Assembly: GCF_009014635.1 (NCBI RefSeq)
Contig: NZ_BKCF01000004.1
Coordinates: forward strand, 124,001-188,000
DNA from: Patiriisocius marinistellae
Lineage (GTDB): Bacteria > Bacteroidota > Bacteroidia > Flavobacteriales > Flavobacteriaceae
Direction of reading: 5' to 3'
Length of the DNA stretch: 64,000 bases
Shown here: piece after piece, positions 3,755 to 62,531 of the stretch
How the letters are laid out: every line of letters begins with the position of its first letter
Position numbering within the stretch: position 1 is the stretch's first letter
The notes under the pieces: model-generated
Told to the model about the DNA's origin: nothing
What the model saw: the letters and a program-made list of their open reading frames with translations, nothing else
Database searches by the model: none
Made by a program: the position numbers and the translations under genes

Positions 3755-3769
3755 CTTCGGAAATTTTAA
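3755..3769 (+). repeat. Dispersed motif copy, full 15-mer
   Basis: Exact CTTCGGAAATTTTAA, 17 bp past the barrel-protein stop and upstream of uvrB. First of at least 19 copies of the core in the window. Confidence 0.85.
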
Positions 3770-3782
3770 TACAATTTTAAGG

Positions 3783-3793
3783 CTTCGGAAATT
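3783..3793 (+). repeat. Dispersed motif copy, core
   Basis: CTTCGGAAATT, in direct orientation 28 bp after the preceding copy, in the same intergenic gap upstream of uvrB. Confidence 0.8.
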
Positions 3794-3851
3794 GATAACA
3801 CCCCATTCTTGACCCTAATTTTAGTAACTTTACTGTTTACTGAAATGTGCT

Positions 3852-5855
3852 ATGAAATTTAAAATTGAATCAGAATTTAAACCCACTGGGGACCAACCCG
3901 AAGCTATAAAATCATTAGTCTCAGGAATTAATTCCGAAGAAAAATACCAAACATTATTAGGGGTAACCGGAAGTGGAAAAACCTTTACTGTTGCTAATGT
4001 TATTCAAGAAGTACAAAAACCCACATTAGTTTTAGCTCACAATAAAACCCTCGCAGCGCAACTATATCAAGAGTTTAAAGCATTTTTCCCTAATAACGCA
4101 GTAGAGTATTTTGTCTCCTACTATGATTATTATCAACCCGAAGCTTTTATTCCTACTAGTGGAACCTATATTGAAAAAGACCTCTCCATAAATGAAGAAA
4201 TTGAAGTAATGCGGTTAAGTACCACCTCTTCCCTACTTTCAGGAAGACGTGATGTAATAGTAGTTGCATCTGTGTCATGTTTATACGGAATAGGTAATCC
4301 TGCCGAATTTCAGAAGAACGTAATAAGCCTTCAAAAAAACCAAGTAATCTCAAGAACAAAATTACTGCACCGTCTTGTGCAAAGTCTCTATTCAAGAACC
4401 GAAGCAGATTTTAATCATGGCCGTTTTAGAATAAAAGGAGATACCGTAGATGTATTTCCAGGATATGCGGACCACGCATTTAGAATTCATTTTTTTGGTG
4501 ATGAAGTAGAGGAAATTGAAGCTTTTGATCCACTTAACAATAATGTTATTGAAAAATATGACCGCCTAAATATCTATCCAGCAAATATGTTTGTGACATC
4601 CCCAGATGTTTTACAAGGCGCTATTAGAGAAATACAAGATGACTTAGTAAAACAAGTAGATTATTTTAAAGAAATAGGAAAGCACTTAGAAGGAAAACGA
4701 CTTGACGAGCGCACTAATTTTGATTTAGAAATGATACGTGAACTTGGGTATTGTAGCGGTATTGAAAATTACTCTCGGTATTTAGACGGTCGCCTTCCAG
4801 GAACTAGACCCTTTTGTTTATTAGACTTTTTTCCAGATGACTATTTGATGGTAGTTGATGAAAGCCATGTAATGATTCCGCAAGTGGGTGCTATGTATGG
4901 TGGCGATAGATCTCGTAAAGAAAATCTAGTAGAATACGGCTTTAGATTGCCGGCAGCAATGGACAATCGACCATTAAAATTTGAGGAGTTTGAAGCAATG
5001 CAAAATCAAGTTATTTTTGTGAGCGCCACTCCTGCAGATTATGAGTTAGAAAAAACAGACGGTGTTTATATTGAACAAATTATTAGACCTACTGGATTGT
5101 TAGACCCACCAATTGAAGTGCGCCCAAGTCTCAATCAAATTGATGACCTCATTGAAGAAATGCAACAACGCATTGAAAAAGATGAGCGCATTTTAGTGAC
5201 AACACTAACAAAAAGAATGGCGGAAGAATTGACTAAATATCTCGCCAGAGTAAATATTCGCGTTAATTATATTCACAGTGATGTAGATACATTAGAGCGT
5301 GTTCAAATTATGCAAGATTTAAGACTTGGAGTGTATGATGTTTTAGTAGGTGTTAACTTATTGAGAGAGGGACTGGATTTACCAGAGGTATCGCTCGTTG
5401 CTATTCTTGACGCCGACAAAGAAGGATTTTTGAGGAGTAATCGCTCCTTAACGCAAACTGTGGGACGTGCCGCCCGAAATTTAAATGGGAAAGCAATTAT
5501 GTATGCTGACAAAATAACCCGTAGTATGCAACAAACAATTGATGGAACCGAATATAGGCGACAAAAGCAAATTGCTTATAATCAAGCTAATAAAATTACA
5601 CCGACAGCTATTAAAAAGAGTTTTGAAAACGCACTAACAAAATCAAAACAAGAGGCATACACCTTTGAAACTGCCGAAACTTTAAGTGCTGCAGAACCAG
5701 AGGACCAGTACTTAACAAAATCACAGGTTGAAAAGAAAATAAGAGACACGCGCAAAGCAATGGAAAAAGCTGCGAAAGAGTTAGATTTTATGATGGCAGC
5801 AAAATTGCGGGATAAGATTAAAGTATTCCAGAAACAATTAGAAACGGAAGAATAA
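3852..5855 (+). CDS. uvrB: Excinuclease ABC subunit B
   Basis: A 667-residue UvrB of normal family length. It is the damage-verifying helicase-like subunit of the UvrABC nucleotide-excision repair nuclease. Walker A GVTGSGKT is at residues 37-44. The beta-hairpin that clamps DNA follows ([12 protein letters not shown]). The Walker B/DEAD-like motif VVDESHV and helicase motifs [17 protein letters not shown] and QTVGRAARN are present, and a C-terminal UVR domain (residues ~630-665) should bind UvrC. The ATG at 3852 gives the canonical N-terminus ([10 protein letters not shown]). The metalloprotease gene begins 14 bp downstream. uvrA and uvrC are not in the window. Confidence 0.98.
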
Positions 5856-5869
5856 AACTCAATTTTACA

Positions 5870-6484
5870 ATGCCATTAACACACTATATTTTCATATTAC
5901 TGTACTTTCCCATTTCTATGATAGCACAAGAAAAAATCAACTTTATTAATAAAACAATTCCTGAAAGCATAAAAGCAGAGACATTAAAAGCACTCTCGCA
6001 TTATCCAGAACTTGAAACTACAGAAATCTCATTTGAGTTTAAAGACAATATCAAAAAATCTACAATGCAGGCACAACCTACCTTTGGTAGTTTTTTCAGA
6101 AATAAAAAAAATAGAAGTTACCGTATAAAAATTAGCAGAAAAATTCAAATAGAAAATGAGGAGCTTTCTATCGATGATATTCCTAGCGATGTAATGATAG
6201 GTTGGTTAGGACACGAACTTGGACACATTATGGATTATCGTAGTCGCACTAACATGGGTATGGTTGTATTTGGCTTTAAATATTTATTCTCTGGCGCCCA
6301 CATACAAGAAGTTGAACGAGCTGCAGACACTTATGCAATAAAGCACGGTATGGGAAATTATATTTTAGAAACCAAGAACTTTATACTAGATCACGCTAAT
6401 ATTTCAGAAAAATATAAAGCTAAACTTCGCAGATTATACATGTCACCTGAGGAAGTGATGCATTTATTAAATGAGCATAATTAA
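5870..6484 (+). CDS. Exported zinc metalloprotease-like protein
   Basis: A 204-residue protein with an N-terminal signal peptide (FILLYFPISMIAQ). The gluzincin signature HExxH is at residues 115-119 (GWLGHELGHIMD), and a candidate third zinc ligand lies in QEVERAADTYA (Glu149), as in M48-like peptidases. It starts 14 bp after uvrB and probably shares its transcript, although no functional link to DNA repair is evident. Its TAA overlaps the stop codon of the convergent GH3-like gene by four bases. Substrate unknown; activity is inferred from the motif. Confidence 0.75.
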   Translation: MPLTHYIFILLYFPISMIAQEKINFINKTIPESIKAETLKALSHYPELETTEISFEFKDNIKKSTMQAQPTFGSFFRNKKNRSYRIKISRKIQIENEELSIDDIPSDVMIGWLGHELGHIMDYRSRTNMGMVVFGFKYLFSGAHIQEVERAADTYAIKHGMGNYILETKNFILDHANISEKYKAKLRRLYMSPEEVMHLLNEHN

Positions 6485-8001
6485 ATATTCTTTACAAAAG
6501 CTTCCCATTCCTTAAACTTTTCTTCTTTCATCACACGTGCCATTTTTACTTGCCCTCCTTTTTTCTTATTACTGGCATTCCAGTCATAAAAAACATTTGG
6601 AGATATGGTAGTAACTTTGACACCCTTCAATGCTTTACTACGAGCAACTTTATAATTTTTATTAGCATTCTTTAGTGCAGTATCTAATGCTTCGGAAATT
6701 TCTGCGGCATCTACTTTTGCTTCTGTTCCTAAATACCAATGGTGATAAAATTCTCCGTCAATATTAAGTGCTGCTAGTGTAAATTCTGGAATCTCAATGT
6801 CAAATTTTTGTTCCATTTCACGAAGTGCAACATCCATTTTATTTACTGATAATTGAGAGCCAACAACATTTAAAAAGAATTTTGTACGACCTGTTATTAT
6901 AATTTCGGCGCGTTCAATATCTGTAAATGCAATAGTATCACCTATTAAATAACGCCATGCTCCAGCCACTGTACTAATGATAAGTGCATAATCCTGCTCA
7001 AGCTCAACCTCATCAAGAGTAAGTGCAGGAGCATCTTGCGACAGTGAGCCATCTTCTAAAATGTATTCTGGTTTAAATGGTACAAATTCAAAATATATAC
7101 CATTGTCAGTCACTAATTTCATTGAAGTTGTCTCTGGTCTTTGCTGAAATGCAATAAAACCTTCAGATGCTAAATATGTATCAATAACAGTAATAGGTTT
7201 TGAAAGAATTAAATCAAAACTTTTTTCATAAGGCTGAAATGCTACTCCTCCACTTGTATACACCTGCAAATTAGGCCATACATCATGTATTGTCTCTGCA
7301 TTGTGGTATTCTATAACTTTCTTCATCATTAATTCCATCCATGATGGAATGCCACTTAAAGCTCCTATATCCCATGTCTTAGCTCTTTCTGCGATGGTTT
7401 GAACGCGTTCATCCCAATCATCAATTTTTGCAATATCCTCTCCTGGTTTATAATATCCTTTAAACCAAAATGGAATGTTACTCGCAGTAATTCCACTAAT
7501 TTCTCCTTCCAGAAACTCTCCTCTTTCACTCAAATCTGTCGAGCTTCCCAGCATCATTATCTCTTTTTCAAAAAAATCTGGTTCAAGGTTAAAATTTGAT
7601 AATGCTCCCACTTGTTGAACTCCAGCTGCTTTTATAGCATCAATCATAGCACTAGTTACAGGAATTCTTTTACTTTCCTTCCCTGTAGTTCCACTACTCA
7701 ATGCAAAATAAGATGGTTTTCCTGGCCATGTAATGTCCTCTACACCGTCAATAACACGACACCACCACTCCTCTTTCATTTTATTGTAATCATGAAAAGG
7801 AATTGCTTGATTAAAAGATTTTGACACATCTTCAGATTCTAAAATTTTTTCAAATGCATAGTATTTGCCGAATGCCGTATTTTTTGCTGTCTCTAACAAG
7901 TTATTTAAAACATTGCGCTGCTCTTCCCGTGGTGAAGTTTCAGAAGTTAAACTACCTCTTAAATCTATTGCTCCTTTAATAATTGATCCTAAAATTGCCA
8001 T
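6481..8001 (-). CDS. GH3-like acyl-adenylate/amido synthetase
   Basis: A ~506-residue member of the GH3 family in the ANL (adenylate-forming) superfamily, known in plants for conjugating amino acids to auxin and jasmonate. Flavobacteria carry homologues of unknown substrate. The ATP-binding P-loop-like motif SSGTTGKESKRIPVT, the YTSGG motif, the YLASEG motif and the hinge region (ITGRTKFFLNVVG) are all visible. I chose the ATG at 8001 (MAILGSIIKG) rather than the in-frame start 54 bp upstream, because the family begins with this segment and the upstream residues are unlike it. Convergent with the metalloprotease. The substrate cannot be deduced. Confidence 0.85.
   Translation of the reverse strand: MAILGSIIKGAIDLRGSLTSETSPREEQRNVLNNLLETAKNTAFGKYYAFEKILESEDVSKSFNQAIPFHDYNKMKEEWWCRVIDGVEDITWPGKPSYFALSSGTTGKESKRIPVTSAMIDAIKAAGVQQVGALSNFNLEPDFFEKEIMMLGSSTDLSERGEFLEGEISGITASNIPFWFKGYYKPGEDIAKIDDWDERVQTIAERAKTWDIGALSGIPSWMELMMKKVIEYHNAETIHDVWPNLQVYTSGGVAFQPYEKSFDLILSKPITVIDTYLASEGFIAFQQRPETTSMKLVTDNGIYFEFVPFKPEYILEDGSLSQDAPALTLDEVELEQDYALIISTVAGAWRYLIGDTIAFTDIERAEIIITGRTKFFLNVVGSQLSVNKMDVALREMEQKFDIEIPEFTLAALNIDGEFYHHWYLGTEAKVDAAEISEALDTALKNANKNYKVARSKALKGVKVTTISPNVFYDWNASNKKKGGQVKMARVMKEEKFKEWEAFVKNI
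6690..6700 (+). repeat. Dispersed motif copy inside GH3-like gene
   Basis: CTTCGGAAATT; on the coding strand it is read as Ile-Ser-Glu (ATT TCC GAA). Confidence 0.75.
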
Positions 8002-8090
8002 ATTTATGTTACGTCGTTGTTTACTGCAAATTACAATATTCAAAAGTTTCAACAATTTAGTTTAATATAGCTTTAACGCTTACCAAATAG

Positions 8091-8098
8091 TATCTTTG
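8091..8098 (+). promoter_or_regulatory. Candidate -7 element of the rluF-like gene
   Basis: TATCTTTG matches the Bacteroidota TAnnTTTG element exactly and ends only 4 bp before the ATG at 8103, so the transcript would be leaderless or nearly so. No convincing -33 TTTG is seen at the usual spacing. Confidence 0.45.
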
Positions 8099-8102
8099 TA
8101 AT

Positions 8103-11065: not shown

Positions 11066-11127
11066 TTTTTTATTCTTGTATTGAGATTGAAAGTTTCAAA
11101 TATTAAAAATTGCTGATAAATCTAAAA

Positions 11128-15833: not shown

Positions 15834-16775
15834 CTATAATTTATTGACAAATCTTTTAGCATTTTCAAAATCTTCAATAATTTCTTTAACAATTAATGCT
15901 GCAGGTTTAATATTATGGATCAGTCCAGCAATTTGACCAATTTCTAGTTCACCATCTTCTAGATCTCCTTCAAACATTCCTCGCTTTGCTCTTGCTCTCC
16001 CTAAAAGTTTAATTAAGTCTTCTTTAGATGGACTTTTTGTATAAAGCTCAGTAACTTGATTAAAAAAATTATTTTTTAACAACCTCACTGGCGCTAACTC
16101 TTTTAATGTAAGTACAGTATCTCCTTCTTTAGCAGCAACAACCATTTCTTTAAAATTAAGGTGTGCACTACTCTCTTCACTTGCCACAAACCTACTTCCC
16201 ACTTGCACAGCATCTGCACCTAGGACCATAGCTGCAAGCATTCCCTTTCCTGTTGCAATACCACCGGCAGCAATAAGTGGAATTTTAATTTTCTCTTTTA
16301 CCATGGGTATTAATGTAAGTGTCGTTGTTTCATCACGGCCGTTGTGTCCTCCAGCTTCAAAACCTTCGGCTACTACGGCATCAACCCCTGCCTCTTGAGC
16401 TTTTAACGCAAACTTTACACTACTTACTACATGCACTACAGTAATTCCATTTTCTTTTAAACGAGCTGTATAGGTCTTAGGATTACCAGCTGATGTAAAT
16501 ACAATCTTTACACCTTCATTAATGATAATTTGAATTATTTCCTCAATGTTAGGATATAACATGGGAACATTTACACCAAAAGGCTTATCAGTCGCCGCCT
16601 TGCATTTAATAATATGTTCTTTTAAAACTTCAGGATACATAGAGCCTGCTCCAATTATCCCTAGACCTCCAGCATTACTTACAGCACTGGCTAAACGCCA
16701 TCCACTGTTCCATATCATTCCCGCTTGTATTAATGGGTATTGAATTTTAAAAAGTTCGGTAATTCTGTTTGGCAT
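15834..16775 (-). CDS. FMN-dependent nitronate monooxygenase / FabK-like enzyme
   Basis: A 313-residue TIM-barrel flavoprotein. N-terminal NRITELFKIQYPLIQAGM, flavin-phosphate motif GGLGIIGAG, catalytic-His region EGFEAGGHNG and the glycine-rich LIAAGGIATGKG all match the 2-nitropropane dioxygenase/FabK superfamily. It could be a nitronate monooxygenase (detoxifying alkyl nitronates) or an enoyl-ACP reductase II; motifs alone do not separate the two. Its ATG overlaps the stop of the upstream subtilase gene (TAATG), so translation is probably coupled, although the two products have no obvious shared pathway. Confidence 0.85.
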   Translation of the reverse strand: MPNRITELFKIQYPLIQAGMIWNSGWRLASAVSNAGGLGIIGAGSMYPEVLKEHIIKCKAATDKPFGVNVPMLYPNIEEIIQIIINEGVKIVFTSAGNPKTYTARLKENGITVVHVVSSVKFALKAQEAGVDAVVAEGFEAGGHNGRDETTTLTLIPMVKEKIKIPLIAAGGIATGKGMLAAMVLGADAVQVGSRFVASEESSAHLNFKEMVVAAKEGDTVLTLKELAPVRLLKNNFFNQVTELYTKSPSKEDLIKLLGRARAKRGMFEGDLEDGELEIGQIAGLIHNIKPAALIVKEIIEDFENAKRFVNKL

Positions 16776-18394
16776 TACTTTTTTATTAGTTTGAATGTAT
16801 TTGAAATATCTTCGGAAATTACTGTCGCAACATACATTCCGCTGGCAAGATTATCAATGGTTACGCTATTATTCGTAGCTGAAATTTCCGAAGTCATTAC
16901 TCGTTGACCTGCTAATGTATAGATTTCAACCACTGCTTGTGAAACAAATGATGGGATTGAAAATGATACAATATTATCAGCTGGATTAGGGTACATTACA
17001 AATTGTGATGCGAGTAACTGATCTTCAATACCTAATATTTGCAGTGCATTGTAAGCTTCTTCAAAATTAGGGATTCCGTAACCCATCAAATCTGTTGGGC
17101 TACTAAATAAGTGTGAGGCCTCTCTCACTATTTGCATAATTTGCAAATTAGTAGCTTGAGGTCTTGATTGCCATAAGCTTGTAATAGCTCCCGCCATAAT
17201 TGGAGAACTAAAAGATGTACCGTTATTAAAATCTATATTTCCATTTTGATCAATAACTGCAGAGCCTTCACCTTGTGCCATAACATCTGGTTTAATACGC
17301 CCGTCAAAAGTAGGACCGTATGAACTAAAGGAGGCGTAATTTTCATTGCTATCCACAGCTCCTACGGTAAAAACCCCGGGAGAGTCTGCTGGTGTAGCAA
17401 CAAAGCCAAAGCTATTACCGTCATTTCCTGCACTTGTGACTAATAACATTCCCTTATCTAAAGCGTGACTTGCTCCTCTTGCCGAAATAGTTGTTTGCCC
17501 ATCTAAATCCTCATAATCATGGTCATAACTTGAGTTATCAAAATCTTGATATCCTAATGATGTATTTACAACATCTACCCCTAAACTATCTGCACGCTCT
17601 AATGCCTCTACCCAGTATGCTTCTTCAACAGGATTTTCTGCTCCACCTTCTTCTGTAACATACAAATAGTAAGATGCTCCTGGAGCAGTACCTACAAAAT
17701 CACCATCGATTAATCCAGCAATATCACTAAATGTTCTTGAACCGTGTGAGCCAGAACCGTCTGCATTTACTTGGCGTGTTACAAAATCATAGGTGTCAAT
17801 AATTCTATCTTCGTCGATAGCATCTGCAAATGCTGGGTTTGAAAAAACCCCAGGAAAACCACTATCTAAAACTGCAACCACCATTCCTTCTCCAGTAAAA
17901 TCTTGTTGGTGTAGAAAATCAACCGATATCATTTCGGTTTGATTAAGTGCTGCGCCATAATCATAATTAATACGATTTAGGGGATTTTCAATTGCAAATT
18001 TATCTGGTGTTGTACCATTTCCGCCAGGAGAGAAGTTAAGACTTTTATCCATATATTCTATAGCTGCTACAAATGGTAAATCTAATAAGGCTTCTATTTG
18101 AGACTCTGAACCTCTTACATATATACTATTCATCCATTTTGACTTTGCATAAACTGTTATGCCTGGTTGCGCCTCAACAACATCAATAAGATTTTCATCT
18201 ACAGGTACATCTCTTTCATCAATAGGCGTATTATGCAACTGCTTTCTATCAAGCGCGTCTTGTGTTAAAATTGATATAGGATTAGCCAGTGAAGCGGCTA
18301 CATCTGCTTTTTCATTAAAGAAAACAAGTGCGTCTTCTTGAGCGATTGCCATTTGAAAAGCAAATAATATTGTAACTAAAAGTAATTTTTTCAT
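16775..18394 (-). CDS. T9SS-secreted S8 family serine protease (subtilisin-like)
   Basis: A 539-residue exported protease. Signal peptide MKKLLLVTILFAFQMAIAQ; prodomain to ~residue 140; catalytic triad Asp177 (VVAVLDSGF), His217 (GSHGSR), Ser394 (NGTSFSSP), with oxyanion Asn in SAGNDG. The final ~80 residues form a type A sorting domain (MYPNPADNIVSF...LASGMYVATVISED). The usual HGTHVA motif is degenerate around the His, which is common in Bacteroidota homologues. It lies 9 bp downstream of mnmA in the same direction and overlaps the next gene by one base. Likely a surface or secreted protease. Confidence 0.92.
   Translation of the reverse strand: MKKLLLVTILFAFQMAIAQEDALVFFNEKADVAASLANPISILTQDALDRKQLHNTPIDERDVPVDENLIDVVEAQPGITVYAKSKWMNSIYVRGSESQIEALLDLPFVAAIEYMDKSLNFSPGGNGTTPDKFAIENPLNRINYDYGAALNQTEMISVDFLHQQDFTGEGMVVAVLDSGFPGVFSNPAFADAIDEDRIIDTYDFVTRQVNADGSGSHGSRTFSDIAGLIDGDFVGTAPGASYYLYVTEEGGAENPVEEAYWVEALERADSLGVDVVNTSLGYQDFDNSSYDHDYEDLDGQTTISARGASHALDKGMLLVTSAGNDGNSFGFVATPADSPGVFTVGAVDSNENYASFSSYGPTFDGRIKPDVMAQGEGSAVIDQNGNIDFNNGTSFSSPIMAGAITSLWQSRPQATNLQIMQIVREASHLFSSPTDLMGYGIPNFEEAYNALQILGIEDQLLASQFVMYPNPADNIVSFSIPSFVSQAVVEIYTLAGQRVMTSEISATNNSVTIDNLASGMYVATVISEDISNTFKLIKK
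16810..16820 (+). repeat. Dispersed motif copy in subtilase gene
   Basis: CTTCGGAAATT, read on the coding strand as Ile-Ser-Glu. Faces the copy at 16883 as an inverted pair 62 bp apart. Confidence 0.75.
16883..16893 (-). repeat. Dispersed motif copy in subtilase gene (inverted)
   Basis: AATTTCCGAAG. On the coding strand it is read as Thr-Ser-Glu-Ile, a frame different from the neighbouring copy. Confidence 0.75.
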
Positions 18395-18403: not shown

Positions 18404-19615
18404 TTAAGATATAACGCCACTTCCCAAACATTCATCGCCATGATACCATGCAACAAATTGACCTTCAGTGATTGCAGATTGTGGATTATCAAAGATAACA
18501 TAAAGCCCAGTCGATGTTTGGTGCAACGTAGCTTTTTCTAATGTTTGACGATAACGAATACGTGCCATCACCTCCATTGTTTGATCTTCATCTATTTTTA
18601 AATCCTCTCTAATCCAATGAATCTCATCATTTTTCACAAACAATCCACTACGGTACAATCCTGGATGATTTTTACCCTGTCCTGTATAAATAACATTTTC
18701 ATTAACATCTGTAGCAATAACAAATAATGGTTCTTTAGTTCCACCAACTGCAAGTCCCTTACGCTGCCCATTTGTAAAATAATGTGCACCATCATGTGTA
18801 CCCACTTCCTTGCCATCAGAAATGGCGTACCTATGTTTTTCTGAAATATATTTTAATTCGGAAATTTCTGCGTCAAAATTGTTTTTGTCTCTTTGATACT
18901 TAGGAAAATCTGAAGGGATTTCAACGATAACTCCTTTTTTGGGAGCTAATTGTTGTTGCAAAAATTCTGGCAATCGCACTTTACCAATAAAACACAATCC
19001 TTGCGAATCTCTTTTTTCTGCTGTGACTAAATCTTGCTCTGCTGCAATTTTGCGAACATCTGGTTTTAAAATTTCGCCAATGGGAAATAATGTTTTTGAT
19101 AACTGTTCTTGCGATAATTGACAAAGAAAGTAGCTCTGGTCTTTATTAAGGTCTTTACCGGCTAGCAGACTGTATGTTTCTTTTTCATTTCCGAAGTCAT
19201 CCTTAATTAATCTTGTTCCTTTACGGCAATAGTGACCTGTTGCAACGTAATCTGCACCTAAGTCTAATGCTATTTTCATAAATACATCAAACTTTATTTC
19301 GCGATTACAAAGCACATCTGGATTTGGGGTACGCCCCATTTTATATTCCCGAAACATGTAATCAACAATACGTTCTTGGTATTGCTTACTCAAATCTACC
19401 GTTTGAAATGGAATATCTAATTTTTGTGCAACTAGCATGGCATCATTACTATCCTCTAACCAAGGACATTCTTCACTAATTGTTACTGAATCATCGTGCC
19501 AATTTTTCATAAAAAGACCAATGACATTATAGCCTTGTTTCTTTAAAAGATAAGCCGCAACACTAGAGTCTACTCCTCCGCTTAGACCCACAACAACTGT
19601 TTTTTTCTTTTCCAT
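18404..19615 (-). CDS. mnmA: tRNA-specific 2-thiouridylase MnmA
   Basis: About 403 residues from the ATG at 19615. An in-frame GTG 12 bp upstream is less likely. MnmA thiolates U34 of tRNA-Lys, -Glu and -Gln using ATP and a persulfide. The PP-loop [15 protein letters not shown] is N-terminal. Catalytic cysteines occur in [13 protein letters not shown] and in [10 protein letters not shown], and the family's [16 protein letters not shown] signature is present. It is followed 9 bp later by the subtilase gene. A TATTTTTG-type element (complement of 19627-19634) sits just upstream, giving a very short leader. Confidence 0.96.
19187..19196 (-). repeat. Dispersed motif copy in mnmA
   Basis: ATTTCCGAAG, read on the coding strand as Phe-Gly-Asn, a different frame from the Ile-Ser-Glu copies. 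A near-copy without the leading C lies at 18857. Confidence 0.75.
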
Positions 19616-19734
19616 AATCAATGTCACAAAAATACTTGAAATAATGGTAATTTTTTAATTTGGATATTAGTTCAAATAAATATGTACTACCTTTTTACTG
19701 TTTAAAATAATCCTTAACTCTATAGAACAAAAGA

Positions 19735-28607: not shown

Positions 28608-28622
28608 CTTCGGAAATTTTAA
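28608..28622 (+). repeat. Dispersed motif copy, full 15-mer
   Basis: CTTCGGAAATTTTAA in the gap between guaA and the LysM gene. It forms the left arm of a perfect 15-bp inverted repeat with 28674-28688. Confidence 0.85.
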
Positions 28623-28673: not shown

Positions 28674-28688
28674 TTAAAATTTCCGAAG
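28674..28688 (-). repeat. Dispersed motif copy, full 15-mer (inverted)
   Basis: TTAAAATTTCCGAAG, 18 bp past the guaA stop. With 28608-28622 it could form a long-looped hairpin (51-nt loop). Confidence 0.85.
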
Positions 28689-30389: not shown

Positions 30390-31985
30390 TTACAATTCAA
30401 AAACACTAAACTCCAACGCTAAAGGCTTAAGATCATCTTTTAACGTGTTCAATAACGAACCTCCGTATTCTAAGTAAAATTGTGAGAAATTAGTATTTCT
30501 TTCTTGCAATGATTGCTTAGGAAAAAGCTCATCTTGTAATGCCGTGAGTCTCCCTAGTTGATCTACCAATTTTCTTTTTTGCGCTTTAAGCAAACGCTTT
30601 TCTAAATTGTCTAAACCCTTTAACTGCTTTGTTTCTTGAGCTTCTACTGCTCCCCTAAATGATGCATCTGTTTTTTCTGCAACATCATACATCGATTCAA
30701 ACTGTTGTTTTAAATGCTCACGTTGAGTAGTGAAATCGATTTTTATTTTAGATATTTTCTTCGTAAAATCTGTTTGAAGTTGGTGTTGCTTTTTAAACAA
30801 CTCAACAATCTTAACATCCATTTTTTGAAGCTTTTCTGAAACTTTTGAAGGAATCAATAATGCAGAGTTACGAAGCAATAATACAGGAAATGGCACATCT
30901 ACTGATTTAAAATAATCTTTTAATTGAAACCAATAAGCCAATTCACCACCACCGCCCGTATAACATAAATTAGGTAAAATTACTTCTTGATATAAAGGAC
31001 GCAGTAATGCATTGGGCGAAAAACGTTCGGGATAATTTTGAAGCTCATTGAATATCTGGTCTTTACTAAATTTAATATCTGTATCAACAATTTGGAATTC
31101 TCCCTCAAATTCAACAATACGTTCTCGTAATCCTTCTTTTAAATAAAACAAATTAATTTCTCTAGGATAAACTTGCTCACCGTAACCAGCTGCAATTAAT
31201 CGATTAGTAGTTTCGGTTACTTTTTTGAAAGATAAGTTTTCAGCAAGTTCTTTTTCGGCATACGGAATGAAAGCCTTCTTAAGTTGAGCATCATTTCCAT
31301 CAACTATGACAAGACCGTATTCTTTAAACAACTCATTCCCTAGGTAACGTGTAGCTTCTGTAAGTGTTTTATGATTAATGTAGGCTTCTTCAAATAATTG
31401 AGATAATTTTTTACCATTTTCACTTTGCCCAAATTCTTTAATTAGTATCTCTAAAACCTTATCTAACCCTTCTGTGGAAAGTTCGCCTACGGCACCTCCA
31501 TCTTCCCTATTCCATGCTATCTTTTTATCTTTAAAATTAAAGTAATTGATTTCATCAAAATCGTGATCTTCTGTAGCCATCCAGTAAATAGGTACAAAAT
31601 GATTTTCTGGATATGCTTTTTTTAATTCTTCGGAAAGATTAATTACCGAAAATATTTTATACAAAAAATATAGCGGCCCGGTAAATAAGTTAAGTTGGTG
31701 CCCTGTTGTTACCGTAAATGTAGTTTTGGCCAACAAAGAATTTATATTCTCAAGTGTTGTTTTTGAAGTCTTAGTTGTACTGTATTGAACATTTAATTGT
31801 TTGTTTAAAACCTGCCTCATTTCCGAAGAAAATGAAACCTTCTTTAAATTAATTTGATTTTTAAAATTTTCAAGAGTTGGAAAGTTTCCGTAGAAATCAG
31901 AGAGCGTTGTATCTTGAGAAAGATAGTCACACATTGTCTTTGTAAAGTAACCAGTTTTCTGATACGGAATCTTAATTTTAGGCAT
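30390..31985 (-). CDS. bshC: Bacillithiol biosynthesis cysteine-adding enzyme
   Basis: A 531-residue BshC of normal length, the last step of bacillithiol synthesis (adding Cys to GlcN-malate). The N-terminal Rossmann-like part (FTVTTGHQLNLFTGPLYFLYKI; YWMATEDHDFDEINYFN) is highly characteristic, and the C-terminal helical coiled-coil (RRQ/EK-rich, KRLLKAQKRKLVDQLGRL) matches. bshA and bshB are not in the window, as is usual for the dispersed bsh genes of Bacteroidota. A TATTTTTG element lies on the minus strand at 32009-32016. Confidence 0.96.
   Translation of the reverse strand: MPKIKIPYQKTGYFTKTMCDYLSQDTTLSDFYGNFPTLENFKNQINLKKVSFSSEMRQVLNKQLNVQYSTTKTSKTTLENINSLLAKTTFTVTTGHQLNLFTGPLYFLYKIFSVINLSEELKKAYPENHFVPIYWMATEDHDFDEINYFNFKDKKIAWNREDGGAVGELSTEGLDKVLEILIKEFGQSENGKKLSQLFEEAYINHKTLTEATRYLGNELFKEYGLVIVDGNDAQLKKAFIPYAEKELAENLSFKKVTETTNRLIAAGYGEQVYPREINLFYLKEGLRERIVEFEGEFQIVDTDIKFSKDQIFNELQNYPERFSPNALLRPLYQEVILPNLCYTGGGGELAYWFQLKDYFKSVDVPFPVLLLRNSALLIPSKVSEKLQKMDVKIVELFKKQHQLQTDFTKKISKIKIDFTTQREHLKQQFESMYDVAEKTDASFRGAVEAQETKQLKGLDNLEKRLLKAQKRKLVDQLGRLTALQDELFPKQSLQERNTNFSQFYLEYGGSLLNTLKDDLKPLALEFSVFEL
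31819..31828 (-). repeat. Dispersed motif copy in bshC
   Basis: ATTTCCGAAG, read on the coding strand as Ser-Ser-Glu-Met. A partial copy (CTTCGGAAAG) lies at 31628. Confidence 0.75.
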
Positions 31986-32036: not shown

Positions 32037-32046
32037 ATTTCCGAAG
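32037..32046 (-). repeat. Dispersed motif copy between bshC and M14 peptidase
   Basis: ATTTCCGAAG, in the divergent intergenic region. On the minus strand it lies 20 bp upstream of the bshC -7-like element, where a -33 element would sit. Confidence 0.75.
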
Positions 32047-34669: not shown

Positions 34670-34684
34670 CTTCGGAAATTTTAA
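34670..34684 (+). repeat. Dispersed motif copy, full 15-mer, abutting a terminator
   Basis: CTTCGGAAATTTTAA, whose last bases are the first bases of the terminator stem of the M14 gene. Confidence 0.85.
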
Positions 34685-34723
34685 AGGGTGGGTTTTGATT
34701 GTTTTCAAAACCCACCCTTTTTT
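34683..34723. terminator. Bidirectional rho-independent terminator
   Basis: A 16-bp stem (AAAGGGTGGGTTTTGA at 34683-34698 with 34705-34720) around a 6-nt loop, followed by T's on the plus strand and by A's before it. It separates the M14 gene from the convergent 199-residue protein gene. Confidence 0.9.
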
Positions 34724-34743
34724 ATTTAATTAAAACTTAAAAC

Positions 34744-35856: not shown

Positions 35857-35866
35857 ATTTCCGAAG
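35857..35866 (-). repeat. Dispersed motif copy upstream of the sigma gene
   Basis: ATTTCCGAAG, 26 bp upstream of the sigma-factor ATG. Confidence 0.75.
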
Positions 35867-38538: not shown

Positions 38539-38611
38539 GACCAGTTAGCTCAGTTGGTAGAGCACCTCCCTTTTAAGGAGGTGGTCCTGGGTTCGAGCCC
38601 CAGACTGGTCA
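38539..38611 (+). tRNA. tRNA-Lys (anticodon TTT)
   Basis: A 73-nt cloverleaf: 7-bp acceptor stem GACCAGT/ACTGGTC, D arm GCTC..GAGC, anticodon stem CCTCC/GGAGG with loop CTTTTAA, T arm CTGGG TTCGAGC CCCAG, discriminator A. CCA is not encoded. Substrate of the MnmA enzyme encoded in the same window (U34). Confidence 0.98.
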
Positions 38612-38618
38612 CAAAATT

Positions 38619-38648
38619 AAGCCCTTTCTTTTGATAGGGCTTTTTTTG
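38619..38648 (+). terminator. Terminator after tRNA-Lys
   Basis: AAGCCCT at 38619-38625 pairs with AGGGCTT at 38636-38642, 10-nt loop, then a run of T's. Confidence 0.88.
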
Positions 38649-38670
38649 TATGAAATTTTAAAACCTAACT

Positions 38671-38706
38671 TTTGAAGCGTCTTACAAATCAAAAGTTCTA
38701 TATTTG
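38671..38706 (+). promoter_or_regulatory. Promoter of tRNA-Leu
   Basis: TATATTTG at 38699-38706 is identical to the tRNA-Lys -7 element. The nearest TTTG (38671-38674) gives a long 24-bp spacer, so the -33 element is uncertain. Confidence 0.6.
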
Positions 38707-38716
38707 CCGCCAGCTA

Positions 38717-38726
38717 ATTTCCGAAG
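38717..38726 (-). repeat. Dispersed motif copy between promoter and tRNA-Leu
   Basis: ATTTCCGAAG, lying in what would be the transcribed 5' leader of the tRNA-Leu precursor. Confidence 0.75.
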
Positions 38727-38744
38727 AGAAATAACTTGTTAAAC

Positions 38745-38827
38745 ACCCGGGTGCTGAAATTGGTAGACAGGCACGGTTGAGGGCCGTGTGCACTAGTTGC
38801 GTGTGGGTTCAAGTCCCATTCCGGGTA
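38745..38827 (+). tRNA. tRNA-Leu (anticodon GAG)
   Basis: An 83-nt class II tRNA. Acceptor stem ACCCGGG/TCCGGGT (one G.T pair), anticodon stem CACGG/CCGTG with loop TTGAGGG, a long variable arm and T-loop TTCAAGT. Discriminator A; no encoded CCA. Confidence 0.97.
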
Positions 38828-42288: not shown

Positions 42289-42303
42289 TTAAAATTTCCG
42301 AAG
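42289..42303 (-). repeat. Dispersed motif copy, full 15-mer, between crtB and crtZ
   Basis: TTAAAATTTCCGAAG, 17 bp past the crtB stop. Confidence 0.85.
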
Positions 42304-44190: not shown

Positions 44191-46461
44191 TTAAGCATTT
44201 TGTTCTTTAATCAAATTTAAAGCACTTCCCTTTCTGTACCATTCTATTTGTGCAGCATTATATGTGTGATTTACTTTAATTGTATCTTTATTACCATCTT
44301 TATGCACAATCTCTACTGTTAATGGAGTATCTGGCGTAAAATCTGCAATATCAACAAAATTAAAGGTATCATCCTCTTGAATTAAATCGTAATCTGCTTC
44401 GTTTGCAAAGGTTAATCCTAGCATACCTTGCTTTTTAAGATTAGTTTCATGAATACGTGCAAAACTTTTTACAATTACCGCAGCAACACCTAAATGACGT
44501 GGCTCCATTGCTGCATGCTCTCTTGAAGAACCTTCACCATAATTGTGGTCACCCACTACTACCGTGTAAATACCAGCTTTTTTGTACTCACGTTGTGTAT
44601 CTGGCACTCCACCAAACTCACCTGTTAATTGATTTTTAACAAAGTTTGTTTTCTTTCCAAATGCATTTACTGCACCTATTAAACAGTTATTTGAGATATT
44701 ATCTAAGTGCCCTCTAAAACGTAACCAAGGACCTGCCATAGAAATATGGTCTGTCGTACATTTTCCAAACGCTTTGATTAACAATTTCATCCCTTGCATA
44801 TCACTATCCTTGATGGGAGTAAATGGGGTTAATAATTGTAAACGCTCACTTGAAGAACTTACCTTTACCTCAATACCACTACCATCCTCGTGTGGCGCAA
44901 CATAACCATTATCTTTTACTTCAAAACCTTTAGGTGGTAATTCCCATCCTGTAGGCTCATCAAGTTTAACCTCTTGACCATCTTCATTTAAAAGTGTATC
45001 TGTCATAGGGTTAAAATCTAAACGACCTGAAAGCGCAATAGCTGCTGTTAACTCTGGTGATGCTACAAAGGCATGTGTATTAGGGTTACCATCTGCACGT
45101 TTTGCAAAATTTCGGTTAAAGGAATGTACAATACTATTTTTAGGTGCATTCTTTGGGTCGTCGTAACGAGCCCATTGCCCTATACATGGTCCACATGCAT
45201 TTGTAAATATTGTTGAACCAAGTTCTTCAAATAAACCTAAAATACCATCACGCTCAGTTGTATATCTTACCTGTTCTGAACCTGGATTAATCCCTAATGA
45301 AGTTTTTAACTTAAGCCCTTTGTCTAATGCTTGCTTTGCTATTGAAGATGCTCTTGATAAATCTTCATAAGAAGAGTTTGTACAAGAACCTATCAAACTC
45401 CACTCAACTTGCATAGGCCAGTCATTCTTAGTTGCTTTTGCAGTCATATCTTTCCCTACTTGTGTAGAAAGATCTGGTGTAAAAGGTCCATTTAAGAGTG
45501 GTCCTAATTCAGATAAATTAATTTCGATAACTTGATCAAAATACTGCTCCGGGTTTTCATAAACTTCCTTATCAGCTGTTAAGTAAGGCCTTACTTTGTT
45601 TGCAGCATCTGCAACATCTGCACGGTCTGTAGCTCTCAAGTAACGTTCCATAGAATCATCGTAACCAAAAGTTGAAGTCGTCGCTCCTATTTCGGCTCCC
45701 ATGTTACATATAGTCCCCTTACCAGTACACGACATTGCCGTTGCACCAGGTCCAAAATATTCAACAACAGCACCTGTTCCTCCTTTAGCAGTTAGAATTT
45801 CAGCTACCTTTAAAATTACGTCTTTTGGCGCAGTCCATCCACTTAATTTTCCTGTCAACTTTACTCCTATTAACTTCGGAAATTTTAGTTCCCAAGCCAT
45901 TCCTGCCATTACATCAACAGCATCTGCTCCACCTACTCCAATGGCAATCATTCCTAAACCACCTGCATTTACAGTGTGACTATCTGTTCCAATCATCATT
46001 CCTCCAGGAAATGCATAATTTTCTAAAACTACTTGATGAATAATTCCTGCACCTGGTGCCCAGAAACCAATTCCAAATTTATTTGAAACTGATCCTAAGA
46101 AATCAAATACTTCATTACTTGTTTCATTAGCTCTTTTTAAATCTTGCTTTGCACCTTGCTTTGCTTGAATTAAGTGGTCACAATGAACTGTTGTAGGAAC
46201 AGCTACATTATCCTTACCAGCCTGCATAAACTGTAATAAAGCCATCTGTGCGGTGGCATCTTGACACGCAATACGGTCTGGAGCAAAGTCTACATAATCC
46301 TTACCTCTTGTAAATGCTTTTGATGGTGTTCCATCCCATAGGTGATTATATAATATTTTTTCAGAAAGTGTCAACGGTTTCCCTACAACTTCACGTGCTT
46401 TATCTACACGCTCAGCCATCTGGGCGTACACTTTTTTTATCATGTCAATATCGAATGCCAT
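44191..46461 (-). CDS. acn: Aconitate hydratase
   Basis: A 756-residue mitochondrial-type aconitase, interconverting citrate and isocitrate in the TCA cycle. The 4Fe-4S ligands lie in [13 protein letters not shown] and [27 protein letters not shown] and [11 protein letters not shown] are further signatures, and the C-terminal swivel domain carries [15 protein letters not shown]. Its length and order fit AcnA/mitochondrial enzymes rather than AcnB. Apparently monocistronic, with a terminator after it. Confidence 0.96.
45874..45888 (+). repeat. Dispersed motif copy in aconitase (14 of 15 bases)
   Basis: CTTCGGAAATTTTAG. Read on the coding strand as Lys-Phe-Pro-Lys, a third reading frame. Confidence 0.8.
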
Positions 46462-53318: not shown

Positions 53319-53350
53319 TATTTAATAAAATTAAGTATTACATGTTTATC

Positions 53351-53364
53351 TAAAATTTCCGAAG
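53351..53364 (-). repeat. Dispersed motif copy (14 of 15 bases)
   Basis: TAAAATTTCCGAAG, 33 bp past the 79-residue protein gene. Confidence 0.8.
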
Positions 53365-54432: not shown

Positions 54433-54467
54433 TTATAGCAAATTTTAATCAAAGCTAATTTATTACT

Positions 54468-54503
54468 AAAAATACCCTATCTTATATAAGATAGGGTATT
54501 TTT
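54468..54503. terminator. Bidirectional rho-independent terminator
   Basis: A 16-bp stem (54468-54483 with 54488-54503; core TACCCTATCTT) with 4-nt loop and T-run, between the lipoprotein gene and convergent guaB. Confidence 0.9.
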
Positions 54504-54538
54504 CATTTTAGAAATATTTTACAAAAATAGTTTTAAAA

Positions 54539-56011: not shown

Positions 56012-56150
56012 TGCAATTAGTATTTACTTTCTAGAAGTAGTGAAAGTGGTTAACATATAATTGCGTGTAAAGGTACTATTATTAATTAAGTTTTTTAAAT
56101 TACTTGATTAATACTTTGGCTCTTTTGAAATTTCAGAAGTTTTTAAAAAA

Positions 56151-58598: not shown

Positions 58599-58617
58599 TT
58601 ATACTTATTATTTATTA

Positions 58618-59931
58618 TTATAATCCTTTAATCTCATCACCAAAAGGCAATAAGAAGTCTCTAGGTTTGAAGGTTTCTTTAACTTTCAATAAATTAACTG
58701 ATGGGTCCACAAACGATTGACTCAAGCGCCCATTAATCGCCACATAACTTTCTACATAAACTTCAATATTATTTTGACCTTGTGCTGCAAAATAATCGCC
58801 AAGAAAATGTGCATATTGAATGATAAAATCTGGCTGTGTACTCATTTGTTTTTCTTGAAAAGATGTCAAAAAATCTGAATTATTTACAAGAAATTGGCTT
58901 CCCGTATTTGAATTCTTAATTTTAAATTGGGCATAACCAGCTTTCTCCATTAACATTACCCGCCACGAAAAACGATACCCTTCTTCTGTCCAAAAAAGCT
59001 CACCGGGATACGCTAAATATCGCCACGGCAAAAGTACTTGAATAAGCAAGAAAAAAGCCACAATTACTACAGACATTTTAGAGTTAAATAGATATGCACT
59101 GGAAGTTATATTATTTTGAATTTTAGCTTCGGAAATTTTAAACAATTTAGAAATACCGTTAATAATTTTTTGATGAAACGAAGCATCAAAAAAGATTAAA
59201 GCACTTACTATCATGACAAAAGGAAATACACCAATAGGGAATAAAACTCGTGTTAAAACATGAAAAACAATTACTAAGAAGAACGCTACTTTCCTAGTGG
59301 GTTTATATAAAAGTAGAAATGGTATCATTAAATCGTATAACATTCCACCCCAACTAAAGACATAATGAAGCCACTCTTGTTGTAGCACATTTCCGAAGAA
59401 AGGGATATCATATTTTGAGGGCAACCAAATCTTTAATGGCATTGCTTCTAGCAACCAATCACTATTTAACTTTGCTAATCCTGCGTAGAAATAAACTATA
59501 AATAGTAACGCTTTAATTACATCAATAGTCCAGCGAGGTACTGTTGCAAAATGACGATTTTTGTTTTGGTAAGCATCAATTGAAAAATAAGCATTTGCTG
59601 GCAAAAACATGAGCAAAAAGGCCATACAACTTATAAAGTAATAGTGATTAAGATATGTTGTTTTGTCAATGAGTTCAATGTAAGTAAAGCTTAAAAAAAA
59701 TATAATACTAGCGATCCTATATTTAAAACCTAGCGCAACACAAAGCGCAGCGATACCGCAGATAATAAAAAGCGCATAATTATATACCCCTAAAGTTTGT
59801 ACCCACTCAAAACCAAAGTATTTAAAATGAAATGATGGTTCATTATAAAGTGTTTTTATCCATCCATTTGCCCAAAATCTAATAATATTATACACCATCA
59901 TCAACCCAAAGAAAATACGAAAGACTGCCAA
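58618..59931 (-). CDS. HTTM-domain membrane protein (vitamin K gamma-carboxylase-like)
   Basis: At least 437 residues. The N-terminal half carries HTTM features (AVFRIFFGLMMVYNIIRFWANG, LYNEPSFHFKYFGF and several membrane spans), and the C-terminal ~170 residues form a soluble domain. The frame is open upstream of this TTG start to 59985, and the extra residues (IKTLNTYLNTHIKAAP) fit the family N-terminus, but contain no ATG, GTG or TTG; the true start may be a rare codon such as ATC at 59979. Position between imelysin and the TonB receptor implies a membrane step in metal uptake. Gamma-carboxylase activity is not implied. Confidence 0.82.
   Translation of the reverse strand: MAVFRIFFGLMMVYNIIRFWANGWIKTLYNEPSFHFKYFGFEWVQTLGVYNYALFIICGIAALCVALGFKYRIASIIFFLSFTYIELIDKTTYLNHYYFISCMAFLLMFLPANAYFSIDAYQNKNRHFATVPRWTIDVIKALLFIVYFYAGLAKLNSDWLLEAMPLKIWLPSKYDIPFFGNVLQQEWLHYVFSWGGMLYDLMIPFLLLYKPTRKVAFFLVIVFHVLTRVLFPIGVFPFVMIVSALIFFDASFHQKIINGISKLFKISEAKIQNNITSSAYLFNSKMSVVIVAFFLLIQVLLPWRYLAYPGELFWTEEGYRFSWRVMLMEKAGYAQFKIKNSNTGSQFLVNNSDFLTSFQEKQMSTQPDFIIQYAHFLGDYFAAQGQNNIEVYVESYVAINGRLSQSFVDPSVNLLKVKETFKPRDFLLPFGDEIKGL
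59127..59141 (+). repeat. Dispersed motif copy, full 15-mer, inside the HTTM gene
   Basis: CTTCGGAAATTTTAA, read on the coding strand as Phe-Lys-Ile-Ser-Glu-Ala. Confidence 0.85.
59389..59398 (-). repeat. Dispersed motif copy in the HTTM gene
   Basis: ATTTCCGAAG, read on the coding strand as Phe-Gly-Asn; different frame from the copy at 59127. Confidence 0.75.
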
Positions 59932-59992
59932 CGGGGCAGCCTTTATATGTGTATTTAAATATGTGTTGAGTGTTTTGATATATAATTATGGA

Positions 59993-61102: not shown

Positions 61103-61131
61103 AACTCTTATTTTTTTTGCAAAATTAATAA

Positions 61132-61165
61132 AAAGCAACTGTTTGAAATTCAAAACAGTTGCTTT
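61132..61165 (-). terminator. Intra-operon hairpin between DUF4856 and imelysin genes
   Basis: A 13-bp perfect stem (AAAGCAACTGTTT at 61132-61144 with 61153-61165), 8-nt loop, then a T-rich run on the minus strand. It could partly terminate or attenuate, lowering downstream expression relative to DUF4856. Confidence 0.7.
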
Positions 61166-61184
61166 AACACATAAAACTAACTTT

Positions 61185-62408
61185 TTAATTCGTACTTGCA
61201 GCTTGTGCTACAGTAAAGCTATATTTTGCTGCAATAGCCTGAGAAATAGCATCTATTGTTTCTGTAGTAAGAGTCCAGAAACCGTTATTATCTTGGTCCA
61301 CTAATTGACCTAAAAGATTATCCACGTCTGCTCTACTAAAAAGAGATTCATTACTTTGAGTATCTCTAGTAAAACGAAGGCTATAAACAAACCCATAAGC
61401 TTCAGAAAGCGCATGGAATGCACCTGTACGGTTACCATCTGCTATTTTATTTTTCCCTTGTTGTAAATAGAAAATACCTCGTATTGCGATAACTTCAGAA
61501 ATTTTTTGGCGAATAATAGCAGCTTGCGCATCACGTACTTCGTAATTTTTTGCAACGATTGCAGCACGTCCTAGTTTAAAAGCATCAAAAATTTGTGCTG
61601 CAATAGTATTAAAATCTGGATCATCATTTACACGCCCCGTGTATTCATTTAAAAAACTATCATCATCACCAATTGTCAAGTTAGGATTAGCGGCATTAAC
61701 AGATGTTCCATATATGTAACCATATGCTTCATCCCACTTATGTTCCATAGTAGTATAAGGACTATCACCGTCTGTAATACCATTATCGTTATTTTCCCTA
61801 TTGTTTGCTTCATCAAGCACAGCAGTTCCTAGATAGTTGTTTAACATCTGGTCTGCCATAAGCGCACCTATAAGACTTTTTGCGAAAGCTTGATTAAATT
61901 CTAATCCATTACTGTTTACGTAACGTGTTCTATCTCCATCTGCTATTTGACCAGCAACACCTGGTTCTGCTAGTGTGTTTTGATTTGGAAATACCTCATT
62001 TACTTGTCCAGCAATGTAGCCATCAAATGTATTTTTTATCAATGTTGCTTCTGTACTATTAGCATTAAAAAAATCTTGCGAAGCTGCTACTTTACTTCTT
62101 ACACTTTTATCTGAAGCATTTAGATCTGCATCGCTAAAATCATTTGCTCCTTCTACATGTGCAAACATTGATGATATTGAAGCCTCTGTAGCTGTGTCAA
62201 AATTTGTGAAAGCTGACACTGTTTCTTGCGCCATTAATATACGTGTAGTTTGCCCTGAGAAAGAAACTGTAGATTGATTATCTCTAGTAAATGTATAATT
62301 AGCTGGCGCTTCTACATTATTTTCTTCTAAAACTGCAGCATCATCATCTGACTGGCAAGAAATAAAAGTGGTTGCTGCAATTATTGAAAGGAATGCTAAT
62401 TTTTTCAT
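61185..62408 (-). CDS. DUF4856 lipoprotein
   Basis: A 407-residue lipoprotein (MKKLAFLSIIAATTFISCQSDDDAA). The DUF4856 family appears regularly with imelysin, HTTM and TonB receptor genes in Bacteroidota. The region MLNNYLGTAVL followed by EHKWDEAYGYIYG is characteristic. The fold is helical and imelysin-like; it may bind iron at the surface. First gene of the operon, with a well-matched promoter and a repeated upstream element. Confidence 0.8.
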   Translation of the reverse strand: MKKLAFLSIIAATTFISCQSDDDAAVLEENNVEAPANYTFTRDNQSTVSFSGQTTRILMAQETVSAFTNFDTATEASISSMFAHVEGANDFSDADLNASDKSVRSKVAASQDFFNANSTEATLIKNTFDGYIAGQVNEVFPNQNTLAEPGVAGQIADGDRTRYVNSNGLEFNQAFAKSLIGALMADQMLNNYLGTAVLDEANNRENNDNGITDGDSPYTTMEHKWDEAYGYIYGTSVNAANPNLTIGDDDSFLNEYTGRVNDDPDFNTIAAQIFDAFKLGRAAIVAKNYEVRDAQAAIIRQKISEVIAIRGIFYLQQGKNKIADGNRTGAFHALSEAYGFVYSLRFTRDTQSNESLFSRADVDNLLGQLVDQDNNGFWTLTTETIDAISQAIAAKYSFTVAQAASTN

Positions 62409-62455
62409 TTAGTATTTATTTAGACTGAATATAAATAGTTAATTATTTTCAGGTG

Positions 62456-62486
62456 CAAAAATAAATACAGATTATGGTTTAAGCAA
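62456..62486 (-). promoter_or_regulatory. Promoter of the DUF4856-imelysin-HTTM-TonB operon
   Basis: On the minus strand: TTG (62486-62484), 20-bp spacer, TATTTTTG (62463-62456). Good match to the consensus, 48 bp before the ATG. Confidence 0.72.
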
Positions 62487-62493
62487 GTTTATT

Positions 62494-62514
62494 TAGATTA
62501 AATCTAGATTAAAT
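62494..62514. promoter_or_regulatory. Candidate operator: repeated TAGATTAAAT
   Basis: TAGATTAAAT at 62494-62503 and again at 62505-62514, 11 bp apart, just upstream of the -33 element. The first copy with following bases forms a 6-1-6 inverted repeat (TAGATT A AATCTA, 62494-62506). A related TAGACTGAAT lies at 62421-62430 in the leader. A site for an iron-responsive repressor is possible. Confidence 0.45.
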
Positions 62515-62516
62515 TT

Positions 62517-62531
62517 CTTCGGAAATATTAA
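62517..62531 (+). repeat. Dispersed motif copy (14 of 15 bases)
   Basis: CTTCGGAAATATTAA, adjacent to the candidate operator. Confidence 0.8.

Follow-up and report, generated by a model that had tools for sequence, protein, structure and literature searches.

Copies of the motif in the window

The window analysed here is a 64,000 bp stretch of Patiriisocius marinistellae (C4:124001-188000 of genome G000, an assembly of 3.34 Mb in 30 contigs), and the element in question is a dispersed decamer, CTTCGGAAAT, some copies of which extend to an exact 15-mer. An original prediction, made by eye, had listed 19 exact decamers, and all were found at the claimed places and strands, 9 on the plus and 10 on the minus strand. 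The very low expectation claimed for them (0.1-0.2) agrees with shuffled versions of the window, which hold a mean of 0.11 copies and a maximum of 2 in any of 100 shuffles, and our recount likewise gives six copies exact over 15 bases. Coding and intergenic labels are approximate because genes were called with a purpose-made, simple codon-score finder; by these labels 11 of the 19 copies lie between called genes in a window with a non-coding share of 9.7%, which bears out the predicted intergenic preference. Neighbouring copies are classed as facing (A/T tails, described below, pointing inward), diverging or direct, and triplets of pair counts are always given in that order. The copies, with the open reading frames (ORFs) that contain or flank them, are:

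3755..3769, plus strand: decamer, exact 15-mer; intergenic
3783..3792, plus strand: decamer; intergenic, direct pair with 3755, against the facing rule described below
6690..6699, plus strand: decamer; within ORF 6481-8055 (minus), GH3-family domains
16810..16819, plus strand: decamer; within ORF 16775-18394 (minus), subtilase-family protein, facing pair with 16884
16884..16893, minus strand: decamer; within ORF 16775-18394 (minus), facing pair with 16810
19187..19196, minus strand: decamer; within ORF 18404-19627 (minus)
28608..28622, plus strand: decamer, exact 15-mer; intergenic, facing pair with 28679
28674..28688, minus strand: decamer (28679-28688), exact 15-mer; intergenic, facing pair with 28608
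31819..31828, minus strand: decamer; within ORF 30390-31985 (minus), BshC, same orientation as 32037
32037..32046, minus strand: decamer; intergenic, with divergent ORFs on either side
34670..34684, plus strand: decamer, exact 15-mer; intergenic, 15-mer end overlapping the start of an inverted repeat at 34676-34727
35857..35866, minus strand: decamer; intergenic
38717..38726, minus strand: decamer; between two tRNA genes (tRNA stretch 38539-38827)
42289..42303, minus strand: decamer (42294-42303), exact 15-mer; intergenic
45874..45883, plus strand: decamer; within ORF 44191-46461 (minus), aconitase
53355..53364, minus strand: decamer; intergenic
59127..59141, plus strand: decamer, exact 15-mer; within ORF 58618-59931 (minus), facing 59389 at 262 bp
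59389..59398, minus strand: decamer; within ORF 58618-59931 (minus), facing 59127
62517..62526, plus strand: decamer; intergenic

Pairs within 1 kb in the window number three facing and two direct.

Genome-wide abundance and anatomy of the site

Chance was gauged with shuffles of the window, with the reversed motif genome-wide, with an order-3 Markov model and, for turnover, with permuted decamers. An excess over a Markov background, named beforehand as a thing to look for, was found and reaches well beyond the 64 kb: the whole G000 genome holds 833 decamers (428/405 by strand) against 16 (4/12) for the reversed control, and 124 copies of the 15-mer (65/59) against 1 (0/1). In an 864-kb set, comprising 800 kb of contig C1 and the window and all from G000, CTTCGGAAAT is the strongest 10-mer, with 237 occurrences against 1.72 expected under the order-3 model. 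A 400-kb sample of a congener, G001, contains 76 decamers against 0.22 expected by the same model.

Alignment of the copies reveals a signal longer than the decamer. Substitutions in the core are tolerated mainly at base 5 (T, A), base 3 (A, G) and base 10 (A, C), the remainder being nearly strict save for a slight coding excess of C at base 7 (16 vs 5.8). Counting the first C of the core as 0, T is preferred upstream at -9, -6, -3 and -2, and downstream preferences over base rates of ~0.35 appear as T at +11 (0.77), +20 (0.47) and +27 (0.54) and as A at +13 (0.67), +22 (0.59), +24 (0.55), +42 (0.57) and +43 (0.52). Most of these tail peaks are visible separately among intergenic and among coding copies, and the pattern is also present in 161 solitary copies; the tail thus belongs to the DNA site itself. 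The 76 copies in G001 repeat T+11, A+13, A+24, T+27 and the upstream T, with A+22 and A+42/43 below threshold in that sample. The site is asymmetric, consisting of a core and an A/T tail that extends ~43 bases in the 3' direction, counted from the first base of the core.

Placement relative to genes and strand

Across the 864 kb, 109 of the 237 copies fall between genes, where the intergenic trinucleotides predict 0.16 (~670-fold excess), and 128 fall within genes, against 4.8 expected. Placement shows no tie to transcription direction: copies between tandem genes run along the genes in 37 instances and opposite to them in 31, intergenic density is alike across all four intergenic classes (tandem, convergent and divergent spaces), and in-gene copies divide into 69 sense and 59 antisense. 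We accordingly rejected hairpins or terminators as the nature of the motif, orientation and placement not being tied to gene ends.

The predicted balance of orientation, unlike that of Chi or KOPS, extends from the window (9 vs 10) to the genome (428/405) and has no link to GC skew. With replication polarity judged from the sign of GC skew in 50-kb bins, contig C1 alone serving as proxy, 104 copies lie on the positive-skew strand and 114 on the other (218 copies in 800 kb), so no replichore-type strand bias was found. Chi and KOPS are also short, asymmetric and over-represented words, but strand-biased ones. A Chi-like site regulating a recombination enzyme of the RecBCD/AddAB type would share that general form, and a directional enzyme could yield the orientation rule set out below; the even 104 vs 114 division, the strong intergenic preference and the several congeners lacking any excess nevertheless make such a site improbable. 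A long, spaced A/T tail is moreover not a feature of Chi.

Orientation of neighbouring copies

Neighbouring copies obey a facing rule. In a pair set of 1.264 Mb (the 864 kb of G000 plus the 400 kb of G001; 313 decamers), pairs within 1 kb are 54 facing, 12 diverging and 13 direct, and 1000 permutations of strand labels never matched the facing count at 0-130, 130-1000, 250-1000 or 500-1000 bp. The same permutation test in this set gave no facing excess at 1-2 kb or 2-4 kb, and finer distance bins show the effect ending at about 1 kb. Pairs with both members inside genes follow the rule as well (23/3/2), and 181 of the 313 copies have no other copy inside 1 kb. When the motif was compared with nine-mers of similar copy number (54 in all, 51 with at least 30 pairs), it was a clear outlier at 66% facing (74/15/23); the others reach at most 36%, and all 54 pooled, motif included, give 775/739/1681. 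The tolerated variant CTTC[AT]GAAAT also prefers to face the core (26/4/14), and a decoy, TTTC[AT]GAAAT, shows 13/14/23 with itself.

A whole-genome pair test with CTTCGGAAA at gaps of 40-100 bp in eight genomes extends the rule through the genus: G000 27/2/6, G001 18/0/3, G002 9/0/2, G005 3/0/2 and G009 10/0/3. These five Patiriisocius genomes sum to 67/2/16, or 54/1/14 outside the discovery DNA, the pairs not all being independent because some are clearly common by descent between congeners. Beyond the genus the same test gave 3/2/7 in G293, 3/1/1 in G276 and 1/0/0 in G055; the rule is not seen in G293, a genome in which 10 of the 11 decamers sampled lie in genes. Pairs of a related octamer (described below) at less than 1 kb in samples of other genera are mixed: G288 19/7/17, G345 7/2/10, G250 17/9/22, G022 22/17/23, G293 6/4/7, G037 5/11/14, G276 3/0/2 and G283 1/0/2.

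Several ordinary causes of the rule were considered. Of 76 solitary intergenic copies, 52 have more room on the tail side. This effect is real, though partial; the tail's need for intergenic room was rejected as the whole cause because coding-coding pairs face too. Helical phasing of the pair spacing was rejected, with no signal at 10.5 bases (R 0.09 for all pairs, 0.13 from 40 bp, and higher values at 9.5 and 11.5). Gene polarity is weak as a cause, sense copies lying slightly earlier and antisense copies later in genes (p ~0.04). A mobile element with terminal repeats was likewise set aside, since the interiors of facing pairs differ within a genome (by eye) and so many copies are lone within 1 kb.

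Transcribed CTTCGG forms the C(UUCG)G tetraloop, which raises the idea of an element acting in RNA, with inverted pairs as terminators, and some facing pairs at 24-28 bp could indeed fold. This explanation is highly improbable given the absence of orientation bias relative to genes, the position of three of the six short facing intergenic pairs between divergent genes, the tolerance at core base 5 of a loop-breaking T, and a facing rule that extends to 1 kb and applies within genes too. Of the features of this motif, the facing rule is the new one.

Distribution among genomes and turnover

The comparison with related Flavobacteriaceae that the original prediction called for finds the motif abundant in some congeners and other genera and near control in others. 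In a survey of 299 genomes of the family (at least 90% complete, evenly drawn), 18 hold at least 100 decamers, and by a count made by eye most others are near or below the reversed control; the 15-mer occurs in 32 of 299 genomes in a separate, earlier draw, mostly singly. Motif-rich congeners include G002 (167/178 decamers, controls 8/6), G005 (239) and G009 (474). G002 is probably P. marinus KCTC 32322, to which the best named protein match listed belongs (79% identity) and whose genome shows identical decamer counts; agreement of counts likewise suggests that G083 is Marinirhabdus gelatinilytica. Motif-poor congeners, namely G003, G004, G006, G007, G008 and G010 (small, 77-90% complete), have 6-34 copies against 9-18 in controls, with G004 and G007 at about twice their reversed control.

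A shorter form of the core, the octamer CTTCGGAA, is the top 8-mer in samples of ten of 17 genomes, in eight genera, the 17 being a non-random set mostly picked for decamer or 15-mer hits and including three as motif-poor congeners. It ranks first in G000, G001, G009, G022, G037, G250, G276, G288, G293 and G345 and sixth in G283, and shows weak or no enrichment in G109, G031, G071, G003, G006 and G010. In the eleven enriched genomes (the ten first-ranked and G283), coding octamers become 5- to 22-fold fewer once synonymous codons are shuffled. The extension of the octamer at +8/+9 varies by genus, being A then T in Patiriisocius and A or G at +8 elsewhere; the upstream T preference is common to other genera, and the long A/T tail was not detected in their pooled copies. 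Among the other genera, G250 and G022 show clear intergenic enrichment, and the rest little or none. A search of 100 kb each of motif-poor G003 and G010 found no replacement word of comparable strength.

Individual sites turn over rapidly. Within 266 kb aligned between G000 and G001 (73% identity), seven of 38 copies are identical in G001, as against five of 114 permuted decamers, and ten of the 38 fall at alignment gaps; this aligned DNA makes up 30.5% of the 864 kb yet holds 16.0% of the copies. Copies are thus kept better than controls but mostly come and go, and most sites are therefore not fixed regulatory elements.

These patterns bear on two further explanations. An asymmetric site with genome-wide spread and facing pairs up to 1 kb might be bound by a protein that structures the chromosome by bridging or looping nearby facing sites, in the manner of convergent anchors. 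We regard this as unlikely: a copy number that ranges from control level to 833 within one genus and a fast turnover of sites are both unlike an essential folding code, 181 of the 313 copies lack a partner inside 1 kb, and the well-known chromosome proteins with many sites bind palindromes. The variation within the genus and the facing arrangement would also suit a mark of self used by a defence or modification system, such as a methylated own-site, head-to-head sites being important for Type III-like enzymes; restriction sites are normally avoided and not accumulated, and a core with a 40-base tail is too long for such a mark, which leaves this reading with little likelihood.

Some other sequence features were observed along the way. 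The third-longest motif-free gap of the 800 kb contains polysaccharide genes, and the motif-free, low-GC (0.290) stretch L021:1373-12700 (G000 C1:401337-413360), which encodes an O-antigen ligase, a polysaccharide lyase and glycosyltransferase functions, was possibly acquired. Several 10-mers occur at 12-20 copies against near-zero expectation in G071, G006 and G031 (C1:1-100000 each), as would be expected of long interspersed or tandem repeats. In G250 (C1:1-200000) the near-palindromic AAATGCCATTT, unrelated to the motif, shows strong enrichment in the spaces between called genes (ATGCCATTT, 18 vs 0.3). A perfect 36-base palindrome at 54468-54503 of the window, with A and T ends, lies between two convergent ORFs and is terminator-like.

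Competence-gene homologues

According to PMC8459023, transformation of Riemerella anatipestifer requires ComEC, DprA, ComF, RecA, an HHH protein and a DUF1343 protein, as well as an adjacent pair composed of a DUF5689 protein and an outer-membrane protein with a carboxypeptidase regulatory domain. TonB mutants of Riemerella transform less, which for one of them the authors attribute to iron shortage (PMC8383284). The look-up of competence genes proposed by the original prediction was rewarded with a DprA homologue in G000, besides ComEC and an HHH protein (314-residue frame). G000 also has a DUF5689 gene (L012:15784-17202) that immediately follows, on its downstream side, a gene encoding 916 residues or more (pair region L012:15784-19988), whose product has an N-terminal match resembling CarboxypepD_reg that is weak and below the Pfam cut-off. 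The N-terminus of the DUF5689 protein suggests a surface lipoprotein, its large neighbour is probably a TonB-dependent receptor, and the two are the apparent counterpart of the Riemerella competence pair.

ComEC was found in 21 of 22 genomes searched, the exception being motif-rich G005 (59% complete), and DUF5689 in 21 of 22 at E 0.001 and 20 of 22 above cut-off (none in G008, weak in G005), with two DUF5689 domains inside one open frame in G001, G009, G293 and G083. DprA and HHH_3 are each present in 16 of 16 genomes, and an HHH protein of ~300 residues in 15 of 16 (not G005).

Discussion

We consider it probable (roughly 0.7) that the motif serves as a DNA-uptake signal in Flavobacteriaceae and is recognised by a competence apparatus similar to the one in Riemerella. 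The likeness to uptake signals noted in the original prediction gains support from the copy number, the strand balance, the indifference to transcription, the intergenic preference with coding copies tolerated, the spaced A/T tail as in the Haemophilus uptake signal sequence (USS), and the related words in other genera. In our assessment an uptake signal would fit an asymmetric, strand-balanced, transcription-blind, tailed, dialect-forming site with fast turnover better than any rival considered.

Beyond the established motif anatomy, distribution, turnover, facing rule and gene presence, we infer uptake, a receptor, directionality and drive as follows. Competent cells would pick out the DNA of their own kind by a double-stranded site, the core CTTCGGAAAT plus its A/T tail. 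The most likely reader would be the DUF5689 protein, encoded beside its large neighbour of outer-membrane type; homologues of the two are essential for transformation in R. anatipestifer. Binding would take place at the core, the A/T tail with its spaced segments would be bent or kinked so as to enter the channel, and import would proceed one way from the motif. Recombination of imported, motif-bearing DNA would then let molecular drive build up motifs wherever the demands of protein coding permit. The facing limit of ~1 kb would correspond to a directional import tract of that length, and if the tail-side DNA is what reaches recombination, two facing copies would carry each other in. The opposite polarity, in which the motif serves core-side DNA and facing pairs serve both sides, is equally compatible. 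We put forward as a tentative proposal the complete scheme, that of a directional Bacteroidota uptake signal handled by a pair of lipoprotein and outer-membrane receptor instead of a pilus, with one-way import over ~1 kb and mutual drive that writes facing pairs, such that the genome records the polarity and length of the tract.

The uptake interpretation must be tempered by several observations that weigh against it. Motif-poor G003, G004, G006, G007, G008 and G010 all have ComEC, DprA and HHH homologues, and all but G008 have DUF5689; their competence matches are free of internal stops, with the ComEC frame short in G006 (467), G008 (579) and G010 (604) against 679-707 elsewhere in the genus. 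Among the genomes of the gene searches, competence-gene presence shows no association with motif presence, and since motif-poor congeners carry the same homologues, gene presence gives the uptake interpretation no support. In Haemophilus, uptake is not raised by two signals within 100 bp, according to PMC7811141. Mutual drive predicts more direct than diverging pairs per class, which does not hold within 1 kb, with 13 direct (two classes) to 12 diverging (one); at 40-100 bp in the five congeners, direct pairs do exceed diverging ones per class as predicted, 16 (two classes) to 2 (one). The variant CT[AG]CGGAAAT does not follow the facing rule with the core (6/8/1), and the decoy TTTC[AT]GAAAT paired with the core (40/25/63) speaks against a simple picture. 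As regards depletion of the motif from foreign DNA, a trait of uptake signals, motif-free gaps longer than 10 kb are at chance level (11 vs 10.0 in G000, 7 vs 8.5 in G001). Motif count is independent of GC in G000; in G001 it is weakly related at 5 and 10 kb (Spearman 0.26 and 0.37, p ~0.02) and not at 20 kb.

To our knowledge, Pasteurellaceae and Neisseriaceae are the only well-established cases of uptake signals. The Pasteurellaceae core is AAGTGCGGT. The over-represented core here is CTTCGGAAAT and unrelated to it, the tail here extends to +43, and the phylum is another one, with outer-membrane machinery that is probably different. Points in common with the Haemophilus and Pasteurellaceae USS are a short asymmetric core in more than 1000 copies on both strands and downstream A/T-rich segments set by helical turns (PMC7811141; PMC12616744). 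Pairs differ: in Pasteurellaceae, the analysis of Kingsford et al. describes no +- bias beyond ~30 nt (PMC1852404), as against facing to ~1 kb here. The DNA uptake sequence (DUS) of Neisseria resembles the present motif in being a word of decamer size that forms dialects with a common core (PMC3630211) and in the frequency of close inverted pairs (PMC1852404), and departs from it in being continuous and in having the type IV minor pilin ComP as its reader (PMC12616744); close DUS pairs are tied to terminators, and the pairs described here are not confined to gene ends. Among the open-licence PMC articles listed, titles and abstract openings yielded no uptake signal in Flavobacteriaceae or Bacteroidota; a related article among them is PMC7965970 on Riemerella columbina. 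That species, placed in the same family by the paper, has several of the same competence genes and prefers its own DNA by a mechanism that the authors do not identify; k-mers ranked there by raw count gave A/T-rich words, and the study includes no test of a motif.

If the uptake interpretation is true, an independent uptake signal in another phylum with different outer-membrane machinery would represent convergence, and the motif would provide a testable candidate mark for the unexplained self-DNA preference of flavobacteria. If the facing rule stems from uptake, the distance and direction of imported DNA could be shown by sequence alone.

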